DNA of 64,000 bases from Bacteroidales bacterium (GTDB taxonomy: Bacteria > Bacteroidota > Bacteroidia > Bacteroidales > VadinHA17), in contig JADJLX010000003.1 in the NCBI GenBank assembly GCA_016709865.1, positions 584,858 through 648,857 on the forward strand, in the 5' to 3' direction. Positions within the stretch are counted from its first letter, which is position 1; every line of letters begins with the position of its first letter. Both the position numbers and the translations under genes were made by a program. Positions 1,018-49,321 of the stretch are shown in pieces. The notes under the pieces are model-generated. The model had not been told where the DNA came from. It saw only the letters and a program-made list of their open reading frames with translations, and ran no database searches.

Positions 1018-3374
1018 TGCATTATAATCATAGCCACGGGAGATTTGGTGATTTTTCATCAGGTGTTTCAAAAAGGAGAATGCTGGTAGCTTTCATAGCT
1101 GTTATTATTGTTGTGGGCACTTACTTCATTCAGAGAAATGAATCAGTTGCTGATAAGAATCCGGTAGATTTAGTTAATCCGCTGATGGGAACCGATTCTG
1201 AGTTCCGGCTGTCGAACGGGAATTCATATCCGGCAATAGCATTGCCCTGGGGAATGAATTTCTGGACACCCCAGACCCGGAATATGGGCAATGGCTGGGC
1301 TTATACCTATGACGATTACAAGATAATGGGTATAAAACAGACTCATCAGCCGAGCCCGTGGATCAACGATTATGCTGCTTTCTCACTGATGCCGCTTACA
1401 GGTAAGATTAAGATCAGGGAAAGTGAGAGAGCTTCATGGTTCTCCCACAAGGCTGAAATAGTGAAACCTTATTATTACAGTGTTTACCTGGCTGATTATG
1501 ATGTTACTGCTGAAGTAACACCTACCGAACGTGCTGCCATGTTCCGTTTTACATTTCCTGAAAATGACTCCTCATTTATATTGATCGACGGATTTAAAAA
1601 GGGTTCGATGGTGAAGATCATCCCGGCTGAAAGAAAAGTAATAGGTTATTGCAGTAATAACAGCGGTGGTGTTCCTGAGAACTTCCATAACTATTTTGTT
1701 GCTGTTTTTGACAGGGATTTCACTTCAACTCATACCTGGCATGGAGATACTTTAGAAGTTAATACACTCGAATCAGAGAGCGCTCATTCAGGCGCTGTGC
1801 TGGGTTTCAAAACAAAGAGGGGAGATAAGATAAATGTAAGGATTGCTTCCTCCTTTATAAGTCCGGAGCAGGCATTGTTAAATCTCAACCGTGAGACTGA
1901 CGGGAAAGATTTTGAAACAGTTAAAGCTGAAGGCAAAGCTGTGTGGAACAGGGAGCTCGGTCGGATTGCTGTTGAAGGAGGAACGTCAGATCAGCAGAGG
2001 ACATTCTATTCATGTCTATACAGGATGATTCTGTTCCCAAGGAGTTTTTATGAGTTAAATGAAAAGAATGAGGTTGTTCATTACAGTCCGTATAATGGTG
2101 AAGTGTTACCCGGATATATGTTTACCGATAATGGTTTCTGGGATACTTTCAGGGCGCTCTTCCCTTTCACAACCCTCATGTACCCAGATATGAACAGCAA
2201 GATTATGGAAGGCCTCGTTAATACATACAAAGAGAGCGGATGGCTGCCTGAATGGGCTAGTCCCGGGCACCGCGACTGCATGATTGGCTCCAATTCGGCT
2301 TCGCTCATTGCAGACTCATATCTGAAAGGAATAAGAGGTTATGATATTGAGACTCTTTACAAGGCAATCCTTAAGAATGCCGATAGTGTAGGTCCTGTTA
2401 CTTCAGTAGGCAGATATGGTGCATCATATTATAATGACCTGGGTTATGTGCCTTATAATGTTGGTATTAATGAAAATGCAGCCCGTACTCTTGAGTATGC
2501 TTATGCCGATTTCTGCATATCAAAACTTGCAACGGCACTTAACCGTCCGAAAGAAGAAATAGATCTCTTTGAAAAAAGAGCTATGAACTATAAAAATGTA
2601 TTTGATCCGGGAAGGAAACTGATGCGCGGCCGTAATCTCGATGGTACATTTCAGTCACCATTCAGTCCATATAAATGGGGCGATGCCTTTACCGAAGGCA
2701 ACAGCTGGCACTACACATGGAGTGTGTTCCAGGATGTAGACGGACTAATTAATCTGATGGGAGGGAAGGACTATTTCAATGCGAAGCTCGATTCAGTTTT
2801 TGAAGTACCCCCCGTATTTGATTATTCATATTACGGTCAGGTTATACACGAGATCCGCGAGATGCAGATTATGAACATGGGTAATTATGCTCACGGCAAT
2901 CAGCCTATTCAGCATATGATCTATCTTTATAATTATTCAGGTCAGCCATGGAAGACTCAGTACCGTGTAAGGGAGGTGCTTGATAAACTCTACAATTATA
3001 CTCCCGACGGATATTGCGGCGATGAGGACAATGGACAGACATCAGCCTGGTACGTATTTTCTGCTCTTGGATTCTATCCTGTCACTCCGGGAACTGATGA
3101 ATATGTGTTCGGATCACCTCTATTCAGCAAGGCGACGCTGCATTTCGAAAATGGCAAAAAACTTATAATATCAGCTCCCGGCAACAGCAGGGAAGATATT
3201 TATGTGCAGAACATAAAGAAGAACGGGAAACGGATTGATGCTAATTTTATCCGTCATGGAGACCTTCAAAAAGGAGGGAAGCTTACCTTCACAATGGGTA
3301 GAGAACCCGATTTAGAACGGGGAACTAAAGAGGAATCATTTCCATTCTCGATGAGTGTTAATAATAAGAACTGA
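1017..3374 (+). CDS. GH92 family alpha-mannosidase
   Basis: GH92 enzymes are calcium-dependent exo-alpha-mannosidases that trim N-glycan or yeast-mannan side chains, usually in the periplasm or at the cell surface. The 785-residue product has the family's usual length and marks: NPLMGTDSEF near residue 55, SNGNSYPAIALPWGMNFW shortly after, THQPSPWINDY, and the C-terminal catalytic block GDEDNGQTSAWYVFSALGF with YVFGSPLF behind it. One hydrophobic segment near residues 22-38 should anchor or export the protein. A start at the Met of MLVAFIAV (about residue 22) is an alternative. It overlaps the upstream GT9 stop by one base. Mannosidase with a GH32 enzyme downstream suggests glycan foraging. 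Confidence 0.93.
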   Translation: MHYNHSHGRFGDFSSGVSKRRMLVAFIAVIIVVGTYFIQRNESVADKNPVDLVNPLMGTDSEFRLSNGNSYPAIALPWGMNFWTPQTRNMGNGWAYTYDDYKIMGIKQTHQPSPWINDYAAFSLMPLTGKIKIRESERASWFSHKAEIVKPYYYSVYLADYDVTAEVTPTERAAMFRFTFPENDSSFILIDGFKKGSMVKIIPAERKVIGYCSNNSGGVPENFHNYFVAVFDRDFTSTHTWHGDTLEVNTLESESAHSGAVLGFKTKRGDKINVRIASSFISPEQALLNLNRETDGKDFETVKAEGKAVWNRELGRIAVEGGTSDQQRTFYSCLYRMILFPRSFYELNEKNEVVHYSPYNGEVLPGYMFTDNGFWDTFRALFPFTTLMYPDMNSKIMEGLVNTYKESGWLPEWASPGHRDCMIGSNSASLIADSYLKGIRGYDIETLYKAILKNADSVGPVTSVGRYGASYYNDLGYVPYNVGINENAARTLEYAYADFCISKLATALNRPKEEIDLFEKRAMNYKNVFDPGRKLMRGRNLDGTFQSPFSPYKWGDAFTEGNSWHYTWSVFQDVDGLINLMGGKDYFNAKLDSVFEVPPVFDYSYYGQVIHEIREMQIMNMGNYAHGNQPIQHMIYLYNYSGQPWKTQYRVREVLDKLYNYTPDGYCGDEDNGQTSAWYVFSALGFYPVTPGTDEYVFGSPLFSKATLHFENGKKLIISAPGNSREDIYVQNIKKNGKRIDANFIRHGDLQKGGKLTFTMGREPDLERGTKEESFPFSMSVNNKN

Positions 3375-3571
3375 CACAGAGAGACACAGAGGATACACAG
3401 AGAGCCACTGAGAGAAATTTAGTTGATACATTGACAAATATTATAAGAAAAATTAAACAAGAAATTAAATGGTAGGGTTTACAAGGAATTTTAAACCTCT
3501 GTGTAACTCTGTGTCTCCTCTGTGTAACTCTGTGATAGTTCTTCTATTCATACAATTAAATAGTTATTAAG
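3375..3571. repeat. Inverted CACAGAG / CTCTGTG repeat cluster
   Basis: The first 45 bases after the GH92 stop carry several CACAGAG units, and bases near 3496-3536 carry the complementary CTCTGTGT units several times. The two clusters could fold into a long imperfect hairpin between the two glycosidase genes. The same CTCTGTG/CRCAGAG pairing returns in the intergenic cassettes further right. No gene is seen here. Confidence 0.6.
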
Positions 3572-28133: not shown

Positions 28134-28156
28134 ACATTCAATTGAATTCAAAAATT

Positions 28157-28417
28157 TCCCCTCCTTTTGAAGGAGGGGTGGTCGGGATGATTGATTATCA
28201 TATATATACAGTATTTTATTTCCCGACCGGGGTGGTTGATTCTCTGATTTCCTTTTACCTATATTTAAATGAAAACAAAAACATCTTTAACAGGAAAAGT
28301 CTTAAGTTCTTAGAATCGAATCCACTTCTACAGAGGTAATCAACCACCCCGGCCGGTATCAGAATTTGTTAAATATTTAAAAAACAGTCCGGCCACCCCT
28401 CCTTCAAAAGGAGGGGA
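28157..28417. mobile_element. Gene-less hairpin-bounded inverted-repeat element (relative of the 34.7 kb DUF559 element)
   Basis: Both ends are inverted copies of the same design: an outer palindrome CCCCTCCTT...AAGGAGGGG, then GTGGYCGG, about 35-45 AT-rich bases, and an inner CCGGCCGGGGTGGTTGATT-like block. The ~95-bp middle has no gene. The same ends flank the DUF559 gene at 34.7-35.3 kb, so this looks like a deletion derivative that might move with its help. The ORF drawn through this DNA is not a gene. Confidence 0.72.
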
Positions 28418-28462
28418 AATGTATTAGACACTGCAGGACCGCAAGACCGCAAGACTTTTTAT

Positions 28463-34620: not shown

Positions 34621-34744
34621 TAATCATGACCCGGCACACAGCACCACTTAGCCGTCAAATTTAAGATTTTGAAAAAGGTTAGGTGTAGTTGAATACAAAA
34701 GGTACAACTATCTTAATATCAGGATATAGTAAGCTAAATAAACT

Positions 34745-35326
34745 CTCCCCTCCTTTTGAAGGAGGGGTGGCCGGACTACATTTTAATTTTGATACAAATG
34801 CTTATCCCGGCCGGGGTGGTTGATTATTCTATCAGATTACTAATTCCTTTTTTATTAAATATTTTAATTATCTCACCTTTTAAATATTCAGGATCCTGGA
34901 ATACAAATCTTTTTTCAAACCTTAAAATTGTGAATCCTAAACTCTCGAGATATTTATCCCTGTTTTCATCTTTTTGTATCCGATGATATTCACCATGAGG
35001 ATTTCCATCCAGCTCAATAATAAGTTTTTCTGACGGACAACAAAAGTCAACAATGTATCTGCCAATACTATACTGTCTTCTGAATTTTCTTCCTGCAAGT
35101 TTCTTTGACTTAAGCATAACCCATAGAGCTACCTCAGCTTAAGTTGAGTTGTTCCTGAGAACTGATCTGAATCCTTTCAGGCTTTTTCTGTTGATGAGGT
35201 TTTTGTTGATCATGGATTTAAAGGTACGAAAAAACTAATAAAATCAACCACCCCGTCCGGGAAATAATATTTCATAAAAGGCAGATAATCAGTACTCCCG
35301 TCCACCCCTCCTTCAAAAGGAGGGGA
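34745..35326. mobile_element. Hairpin-bounded element carrying a DUF559 endonuclease gene
   Basis: About 580 bp with inverted ends of the same design as at 28.2 kb. The outer palindrome CCCCTCCTT...AAGGAGGGG is followed by GTGGCCGG, an AT-rich spacer and an inner CCGGCCGGGGTGGTTGATT block; the right end mirrors this (ATCAACCACCCCGTCCGG ... GTCCACCCCTCC). The DUF559 gene lies between the inner blocks. No clear target duplication was found. It could be a self-mobilising unit or a repeat with a captured nuclease. Confidence 0.75.
34824..35213 (-). pseudogene. DUF559 endonuclease-domain protein with internal stop codon
   Basis: The C-terminal part reads KLAGRKFRRQYSIGRYIVDF, ELDGNPHGEYH and FTILRFEKRFVF, the core of DUF559 (PD-(D/E)xK-type, Vsr-related). 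Upstream the same frame continues back to an ATG at 35213 (MINKNLINRKSLKGFRSVLR NNST) and breaks at one TAA, codon 25, before AEVALWVML. Homologues usually read Ser there (TCA), so one base change made the stop. Restart at the Met of MLKSKKLAGR could give a shortened 97-residue product that keeps the nuclease core. Confidence 0.72.
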
Positions 35327-35489
35327 GACTTTTACTTATTCCCGCATCTTCAATACTAAGCTTAAGTTGAAGCCTATGCATTTCACCCTGCTTAGCATTA
35401 GCTAATTTCCTGCCCTTACGCCCTTACGCCTTTACGCCCTTGCGCCTTTACGCCTTTTTATTATATTTGAATATCATTAAAGTTTAACA

Positions 35490-39457: not shown

Positions 39458-39716
39458 ACTCCGTGCCAACTCCGTGTCAGACTGAGCTTGCCCAAGGCTC
39501 CGTGGTTATATTTTACCGCAGAGAAACGCAGAGCTATTACGCAGAGTCCCGATAGCTATCGGGACGCAGAGAAAAACCAGCAGAAAATGGAGAATCCACC
39601 TACGCAAAAGCTTCGGTGGACGAAGTGGGTGAGGGGGTGAAGAGGAGAATGGGAAATGGAGGGACTGCAAGACCGCAAGACTTGCATGACCTGCAAGACA
39701 ATTCTTCACGCCATTC
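39458..39716. repeat. Full ordered repeat cassette with two nested palindromes
   Basis: Order: CTCCGTG units interrupted by a CTGAGCTTG element (39478); ACCGCAGAG/CGCAGAG units interrupted by TCCCGATAGCTATCGGGA (39547-39564); a TCCACC...GGTGGA hairpin (39595-39620); GGGAGAATGG units; GACTGCAAGACCGC units; and AATTCTTCACGCC. No gene. Confidence 0.7.
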
Positions 39717-48721: not shown

Positions 48722-49321
48722 GTCCCGGGAATAGCAGTACTAATTCAAACACAAACCTCCAGCCTCCAACCCTTGCACCCTTGTGCCCTTGCGCCTTTGT
48801 GCCCTTGTGCCTTTGCGCCCTTGCGCCTTTGCGCCCTTGCGCCTTCCTTTCATACATAATACATCCCTTCCGTGTGTCGTGCGTCGTGCATCGTGTGTCG
48901 TTCTTCCCATCATCTATCATCTCTAATACATAATACATTTCTCCTCCGTGTTCCTCCATGCTCTCCATGTCTCCGCGGTTCTTTTTTACCGCAGAGCAAC
49001 GCAGAGTTTTTCGCAGAGTCCCGATAGCTATCGGGACGCAGAGATAAACCAGCGGAACATTGAGAAAGGGAGAGTGGGAGAGTGGGAGACTGCACGACCG
49101 CAAGACCGCAAGACCTGCAAGACAAGTCTCCTCATCATCTATCATCAATAATAAATAATACATAATCCATCTCTTCCTTTCTTAAAATATTCTTCTTAAA
49201 TTTGGATCAAGACGCTCGCTGCGTTCAAATAGAAATAATAAGAGTAGACAGGATTATAAATTGGAGGTCGCAATTTGCGTCCTCCATTCTAAGGATTCAT
49301 TATTAATGAAAAAGTGTGAGA
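48722..49321. repeat. Long repeat-rich intergenic stretch
   Basis: No gene. It begins with CCTTGCGCCTTTG-type tandem units, then CGTGTGTCGTGCGTCGTGCA units, the ATCATCTATCATC tract, CTCCGTG units, ACCGCAGAG/CGCAGAG units with TCCCGATAGCTATCGGGA at 49019-49036, GGGAGAGTGGGAGA and GACCGCAAGACC units. It ends with a 26-bp palindrome at 49261-49286. Confidence 0.7.
49261..49286. repeat. Palindrome upstream of the ORF6N gene
   Basis: TTGGAGGTCG-CAATTTG-CGTCCTCCA can pair across its centre (GGAGG with CCTCC, CGCAA with TTGCG). A near-copy with changed bases but the same folding lies inside the ORF6N coding region at 49534-49560. Confidence 0.65.

Follow-up and report, generated by a model that had tools for sequence, protein, structure and literature searches.

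The window, by which we mean the whole stretch of 64,000 nucleotides analyzed here, contains two short elements with inverted, hairpin-bearing ends. Element 1 (34740–35332, minus strand as judged by end type) is of the inner, or A, type and holds a broken gene for a DUF559 (Vsr-like, PD-(D/E)XK) endonuclease. Its outer-lying arms (34740–34774 and 35298–35332, 35 nt) are 94% complementary, and its inner arms (34805–34825 and 35242–35262, 21 nt) match at 95%. Element 2 (28154–28420, plus strand) is built from the same two end types, with outer-lying arms of 39 nt (28154–28192 and 28382–28420, 90%) and inner arms of 19 nt (28223–28241 and 28338–28356, 95%). The original prediction had given both elements inverted ends made of a hairpin and an inner block, and this is confirmed by arms that are 90–95% complementary and by the inner block CCGGCCGGGGTGGTTGATT, which occurs four times in the window at up to three mismatches and not at all in shuffled sequence.

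Each end consists of hairpin 1 (CCCCTCCTTTTGAAGGAGGGG), the link GTGG, a possible second hairpin, and the block GGGGTGGTTGATT. Hairpin 1 of the window elements has the stem CCCCTCC/GGAGGGG and a loop of 3 bases, with GTGG next to it. It lies at 34747–34767 in the right end of element 1 and at 35305–35325 in the left end, where it is the exact reverse complement of the right-end copy; the loops are inverted, not direct. The corresponding hairpins of element 2 are at 28158–28178 (left end) and 28396–28416 (right end). The inner arms are the inner blocks, the right-end block being the one at lower coordinates in element 1 and the one at higher coordinates in element 2 (all from block scans, joined by an arm scan for both ends of element 1). 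Read by eye, the second hairpin would have the stem GGTCGGGA...TCCCGACC or GGCCGG...CCGGCC, and at the right end of element 1 it could form between the inner block and the GGCCGG that follows hairpin 1. Because left ends (on the 5′ side of the gene) can be distinguished from right ends (on its 3′ side), element 2 is seen to have the orientation opposite to that of element 1, whose left end lies at the high coordinates.

The longest open reading frame of the DUF559 gene (34824–35117) matches Pfam family PF04480 with an E value of 6.9e-26 and 90.7 bits, exceeding the curated cut-off of 20.6. The full extent of the gene, 34824–35213 on the minus strand, was set by comparison with P0001, a protein of 129 amino acids that is 97% identical. 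One in-frame stop, at 35139–35141, interrupts the frame, and the window copy is therefore a pseudogene; the DUF559 gene that had been predicted for one of the two elements is present, but it is longer than its open reading frame and no longer intact. Intact relatives exist, both P0001 and the frames of clade A. Five residues (Gln47, Asp56, Glu67, Asp69, and His73 in P0001 numbering) are invariant across 30 aligned relatives, and the nearest solved structure by sequence is the endonuclease-like 3hrl (E 1.9e-20). A structure prediction for P0001 reached a mean pLDDT of 49.9 and was set aside. Eleven intact clade-A frames give a median pN/pS of 0.32 over 55 pairs; dN/dS has a defined value in 25 of those pairs, which are near saturation, and is about 0.14. 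The intact clade-A DUF559 genes are under purifying selection, and the low values of both ratios thus place the family under selection, though the window copy is dead.

Element 2 had been described as gene-less. It has no intact gene; it does, however, keep a remnant of the DUF559 5′ end (28269–28337, plus strand), which reads MKTKTSLTGKVLSS and then a stop, as seen in translation, in alignment with the gene-bearing element at L010, and in blastn matches to L002, L003, L010, and L017. The alignment with L010 runs at 87% over 266 bp, with 234 bp gone within the gene, and element 2 is therefore an internal-deletion derivative of the gene-bearing form and not a separate kind of element. A related site for element 2 was sought through the adjoining peptidase gene in 98 genomes of the family and given up: only G009 (85% identical, the nearest to the window among the genomes searched) and G086 (83%) are close, and their loci match the window only in the peptidase part. 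An orthologous site for element 1, sought through the neighboring methyltransferase gene, was likewise given up, relatives in the genus being at most 65% identical. Rfam matches in the window amount to one tRNA and nothing else. The window also has another REP-like repeat, the palindrome GCAGAGTCCCGATAG/CTATCGGGACGCAGAG, in two copies (39537–39574 and 49006–49049), as well as a CACAGAGAGAC-rich inverted repeat of 47 nt with arms 84 nt apart (3366–3543).

When a single genome from each species was scanned, related DUF559 genes came up at 44 loci, and at L002, L010, and L017 the gene sits between left and right ends of the window type. In a sample of 58 genomes of a single Bacteroidales genus, DUF559 is present in 45, with 0–10 matches per genome. 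The window hairpin together with GTGG (at most one mismatch) was found in 20 of the 58 genomes, with up to 32 copies in one genome and none for the reversed control pattern; in G009, 28 of 32 hairpins form 14 inverted pairs that span 280–437 bp. Repeats of this kind are dispersed in many copies, the numbers per genome being 0–32 for A hairpins, 0–105 for C repeats, and 0–166 for GGTGAGGG-type units, with reversed control patterns at 0 among the rows listed. The original prediction had placed the nuclease gene inside such ends. In the window clade (at least 55% identity), an A-like hairpin lies no more than 400 bp away from 21 of the 22 unique DUF559 genes, a count made with a loose pattern and without a control; it is on both sides of 10 and on one side of 11, several of the latter being cut by a contig end. 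These 22 genes were kept from 48 matches, near-identical copies at other sites also having been dropped. In 13 of them, the inner block stands 33–41 bp upstream of the gene start as set by P0001. Further deletion derivatives are seen in the DUF559 fragments between two hairpins at L182 (the same as L180), L184, L187, L204, and L213. At L114, L236, L002, and L212, an unrelated palindrome appears, by eye, to take the place of hairpin 1 or of a stretch of an end, with similar sequence next to it; the examples at L114, CCTCCCGCACAGCGGGAGG and CCCGATTGCTATCGGGA, look like palindrome swapping.

Bracketing by inverted sequence extends well beyond this genus. The IR score is that of the highest-scoring inverted match of one flank of a gene to the other. 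It was computed for 105 unique DUF559 genes from the window, the genus, and other phyla, each flanked by 200 bp or more on either side; of 145 matches, 30 had been dropped as duplicates and 10 of the remaining 115 for short flanks, leaving no near-identical pair. An IR score of at least 14 was reached by 67 of the 105 genes, compared with 9 of 434 other open reading frames from these loci and with 27 of 525 mispaired flanks (Mann–Whitney p 6e-39 and 4e-36, respectively). Because these loci had been found by similarity to the window protein or in the same genomes or genus, the test was repeated on 150 Proteobacteria chosen by taxonomy, 46 of them with a PF04480 match. Here 29 of 30 returned loci were scored, one per genome and from the strongest matches, with L256 excluded as a duplicate of L022, and 22 of the 29 DUF559 genes reached the threshold, compared with 2 of 46 open reading frames and 33 of 174 mispaired flanks. 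The threshold was not reached by 38 of the 105 genes in the wide set and 7 of the 29 in the proteobacterial one. Direct matches are also common, with a score of at least 14 for 39 of 105 and 20 of 29 genes.

In the common arrangement of these flanks, a short link joins CCCTCTCCC-loop-GGGAGAGGG to GGGTGAGGG, with the units on both sides pointing toward the gene; a few units, such as those at L013, L020, and L272, are directed away from it. Units that end in GGTGG or GGGTGAGGG occur in Bacteroidota, Pseudomonadota, Chloroflexi, Bacillota, Nitrospirota, Deinococcota, and others, and in other phyla the hairpin units that bracket DUF559 genes differ in sequence. The gene of Sinorhizobium Ak57 has inverted units of more than 100 bp on its two sides (IR score 104), and the unit recurs in at least 39 places of its own replicon and in 24–26 places of the replicons of three relatives. 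A Deinococcus plasmid carries a DUF559 gene with 56-bp inverted flanks (IR score 48.5), one at a distance of 17 bp and the other of 2 bp. At L311 of Neisseria gonorrhoeae, the DUF559 gene is flanked by two CCCTCTCCC hairpin units that are direct, not inverted.

The original prediction also proposed counting copies of the element against the presence of DUF559, and the two are linked, in statistics that ignore phylogeny and include the units flanking the genes themselves. Across the 58 genomes of the genus, the DUF559 count correlates with that of C-type repeats (ACCCCYAAAYCCCCYNAAGGGGG, at most two mismatches) with a Spearman coefficient of 0.58 (p 1.5e-6), or 0.54 after genome size is taken into account; the median number of these repeats is 1 in the 13 genomes without DUF559 and 12 in the 45 with it. 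Presence of clade-A DUF559 genes and of A hairpins in the same genomes gives a two-by-two table of 16/4/4/34 (p 2e-7), clade-A membership (at least 55% identity) having been assigned by hand among the matches listed, so that short fragments may be missed. In the 150 Proteobacteria, where some overlapping matches were counted twice in the unit numbers, GGTGAGGG-type units are found in 22 of 31 genomes with DUF559 and in 11 of 119 others (22/9/11/108, Fisher p 1.3e-11); presence was set at an E value of at most 1e-10, with the 15 of 46 genomes that have weaker matches scored as absent, and scoring these as present gives units in 25 of the 46 genomes with DUF559 and in 8 of the 104 without it (p 1.2e-9). 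Y1_Tnp shows no such link in the same 150 genomes, being present in 21 of the 33 that have units and in 66 of the 117 that lack them at an E value of at most 1e-3 (p 0.55), and in 13 of 33 and 57 of 117 at 1e-10 (p 0.43). Four genomes have units but no DUF559 match, G280 (129 units), G189 (19), G158 (10), and G229 (8). In G280 and G189, with their many units, the enzyme may have been lost or another may act.

In the window and in many sampled genomes of several phyla, DUF559 genes thus lie between inverted hairpin repeats that are also scattered in the same genomes, which makes the nuclease a good candidate for the enzyme behind the repeats. We lean, with some reserve, toward reading these as small hairpin-ended mobile elements with DUF559 as their partner, the nuclease cutting the units and freeing or inserting the bracketed DNA, also in trans. 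Two units in inverted orientation bracket the gene; the nuclease would recognize the folded units and cut at or near the hairpins, and cutting would free or insert the DNA between them. Copies without a gene could rely in trans on the nuclease that an intact copy encodes, and over time solo hairpins and inverted pairs would be left as intergenic repeats, much as is thought of RAYTs and REPs. That the nuclease is the cutting enzyme we infer from its fold and from the position of its gene. In the Bacteroidales genus, many copies also ride in an outer IS231-type MITE, which gives them another route of spread, independent of the first.

This outer layer is a second pair of ends, CATAGCCGTCAACTTAAG, which surrounds many of the inner (A) elements, including element 1 of the window. 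There one outer, B-type end, CATAGGCTTCAACTTAAG at 35361–35378 (minus strand), has two mismatches to the end of the relatives. On the far side, the degraded end CTTAGCCGTCAAATTTAAG at 34647–34665 (plus strand) is graded weak because a scan of the window at three mismatches missed it and it was read by eye only. In a comparison by hand, 6 of the 10 bases of a possible 10-bp duplication around element 1 agree. The fetched loci contain 43 unique outer units; of these, 9 have perfect 10-bp direct repeats and 17 have at least 9 of 10 matching bases, compared with 0 of 258 shifted controls. The IS231 subgroup of the IS4 family has ends of the form CAT-------AA--TAA--- and repeats of 10–12 bp, as given in Table 1 of PMC2266710, and this consensus is met by the outer ends of the relatives and by the better of the two window ends. 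From the end consensus and the duplications, an IS231-type MITE or cassette is the best description of the outer layer, which accounts for part of the spread of the elements.

It could then be asked whether DUF559 is a passenger throughout, the elements being MITEs or cassettes moved by an IS231-like DDE transposase acting through CATAGCCGTCAACTTAAG and the hairpins being baggage. Besides the fit to the IS231 consensus and repeat length (PMC2266710, Table 1) and the duplications, this is favored by G005, where the same truncated DUF559 gene is found in three copies at three sites with homology that stops at the outer ends, one copy lacking the last bases of one outer end. It is also favored by L227 (1100–2111, G004), where an IS231-like outer unit flanked by a perfect 10-bp duplication has a Y1 (IS200-like) transposase in place of DUF559; further nested inverted repeats are found in L227, one of which, near CTACCCTTTATRCACATC, also flanks the DUF559 gene of L108. 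We nevertheless consider this explanation unlikely as a full account. An end scan saw no outer IS231-like ends around element 2, DUF559 genes of other phyla are bracketed by hairpin units of different sequence, and the inner layer is separable: outer units are found without a hairpin (L242–L244), with one hairpin, or with a whole inner element. Nor did a full-length IS with these outer ends come up among the fetched loci.

This separability is seen in G009, which supplies the one comparison of occupied and empty sites, of the kind the original prediction had proposed, that we found. The 100-bp outer unit at L244 is empty, whereas that at L192 has a 355-bp A element at the same point; the 100 bp that they share show 99% identity, with no more than 1 bp duplicated at the inner element. 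The 10-bp duplications of the two units differ, and the outer units were therefore inserted independently. The pair is compatible with insertion of the inner element and with its precise deletion alike. In G107, units of 134–136 bp with one hairpin stand against units of 316–322 bp with the order hairpin-core-hairpin, and two aligned pairs differ by 182 bp. G003 and G094 have one-hairpin versions of the G005/G008 element (L123 compared with L241, 88% over 169 bp), and solo-hairpin forms are found at L228–L232, L240, and L241 beside the two-hairpin forms. Gain and loss of cores would fit these one- and two-hairpin units equally well.

Such solo hairpin sites within otherwise homologous units also fit the idea that the hairpins are targets and not ends, with elements, whether of the DUF559 kind or unrelated, inserting into existing palindromes so that the gene comes to lie between halves or copies. 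The outer unit of L114 is indeed inserted in a CCCC..GGGG palindrome, and some GTAG and CGTC REP families are found inside palindromes, according to an excerpt from PMC3733652. The flanking units are asymmetric and inverted, unlike the products of target splitting; the hairpin loops in the window are inverted and not direct; deletion derivatives keep both ends; and L244 is without any CCCCTCC hairpin. We regard this explanation as less likely again than that of a passenger gene.

Several DUF559 genes do occupy fixed places. The elements are found at different sites, not always at orthologous ones as would have spoken against the original prediction, yet the ycjD gene of Escherichia coli and the Azospirillum and Sinorhizobium genes stay where they are. 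Of 5426 E. coli genomes, 3362 have the DUF559 gene ycjD, which lies between fabI and sapF, and 3333 have the fabI-ycjD-sapF stretch at one place. We considered ycjD as a clean empty-site case and rejected it because both ycjD-less genomes examined carry an efflux operon at fabI-sapF, in agreement with an excerpt from PMC12817139. In E. coli K-12, ycjD adjoins a CCCCTCACCCTAACCCTCTCCCC hairpin unit (L277, 5041–5828). The Azospirillum element is at one site in seven records, and the Azospirillum and Sinorhizobium loci were also rejected as empty-site cases, the places being orthologous or the flanks not adjacent in relatives. Between two Sinorhizobium strains (L306 and L312), the DUF559 locus is orthologous and the right-hand unit differs, with ISRm16 adjoining it in Ak57. 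DUF559 might instead be a host nuclease acting on palindromes in repair or defense, or a gene regulated by flanking terminator hairpins, and its nearness to repeats would then stem from regulation. This would suit the fixed sites and the purifying selection, but it is very improbable given 0–10 matches per genome inside one genus, derivatives that have ends and no intact gene, the copy-number link with the repeats, and flanks that, by comparison with the mispaired controls, are matched asymmetric ends and more than mere hairpins.

We thus return to hairpin-ended mobile elements partnered by DUF559, for which the simplest account would be a REP/RAYT-like arrangement with an unrelated, Vsr-like nuclease. 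The likeness to REP/RAYT systems in the original prediction holds in that elements with and without DUF559 are present at many sites and in that the association extends beyond the window; it is to be qualified in that part of the dispersal is due to the IS231-type outer ends. We are more hesitant about a wider proposal, which we would place slightly short of probable: that DUF559 is the dedicated nuclease of a large class of bacterial intergenic palindromes, a PD-(D/E)XK parallel to REP/RAYT whose insertion or excision at palindromes duplicates no more than 1 bp.

Bacteria commonly carry palindromic repeats between their genes, and to our knowledge the source of those outside the REP/RAYT class is largely open. 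If DUF559 makes or moves repeats of hairpin units, a family for which one search returned 4850 relatives would gain a role, many unexplained intergenic repeats would gain a cause, and a single-domain Vsr-like nuclease would represent a new mode of moving DNA.

Several known systems can be compared with these elements. Rhizobial RIME-type repeats may be one: the two-palindrome unit of Ak57, a candidate repeat of this type, forms an inverted pair around the DUF559 gene and recurs in four large Sinorhizobium replicons. With the IS231-type MITEs and mobile insertion cassettes of the IS4 family, the outer layer has in common the end consensus, the 10-bp duplication, and a small cargo; the likeness is limited to that layer, the inner DUF559 element being separable. 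The protein family of the window gene, YcjD/DUF559 (PF04480), is the one to which Vsr is related, the YcjD profile detecting Vsr according to an excerpt from PMC1189080. Vsr is described there as acting in very-short-patch repair. A link between DUF559 and repeats was absent from the open-access papers searched.

Two classes of REP allow a closer comparison. CGTC-tagged REPs are predominant in alphaproteobacteria, are reported to be without a dedicated transposase, and have a largely open origin, as stated in an excerpt from PMC3733652. This is not the class found here: we considered CGTC REPs as the cognate repeats and rejected them, as the canonical unit, CGTC-AT-stem-loop-stem-CCA, is present in 0 of 113 DUF559 flank pairs and a loose form in 2 of 113. 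The likeness is greater to REP/RAYT (TnpA-REP) systems, REPINs, and REPtrons, in which, as described in the same excerpt (PMC3733652), a small gene is bracketed by inverted palindromes; the repeats that bracket DUF559 are likewise dispersed singly and as inverted pairs. The units differ, in that the GTAG tag (GTAG/CTAC) is absent from the feet of hairpin 1 (0 of 168 12-nt windows in 42 A elements) and the unit here consists of hairpin 1, a possible second hairpin, and a G-rich block. So do the partners: that of REPs is a Y1 HUH transposase, the presence of which has no link to the proteobacterial units here, and its place is taken by a Vsr-like PD-(D/E)XK nuclease. With the action of this enzyme proven, the elements would be a separate kind from the known hairpin repeats that have a partner enzyme.
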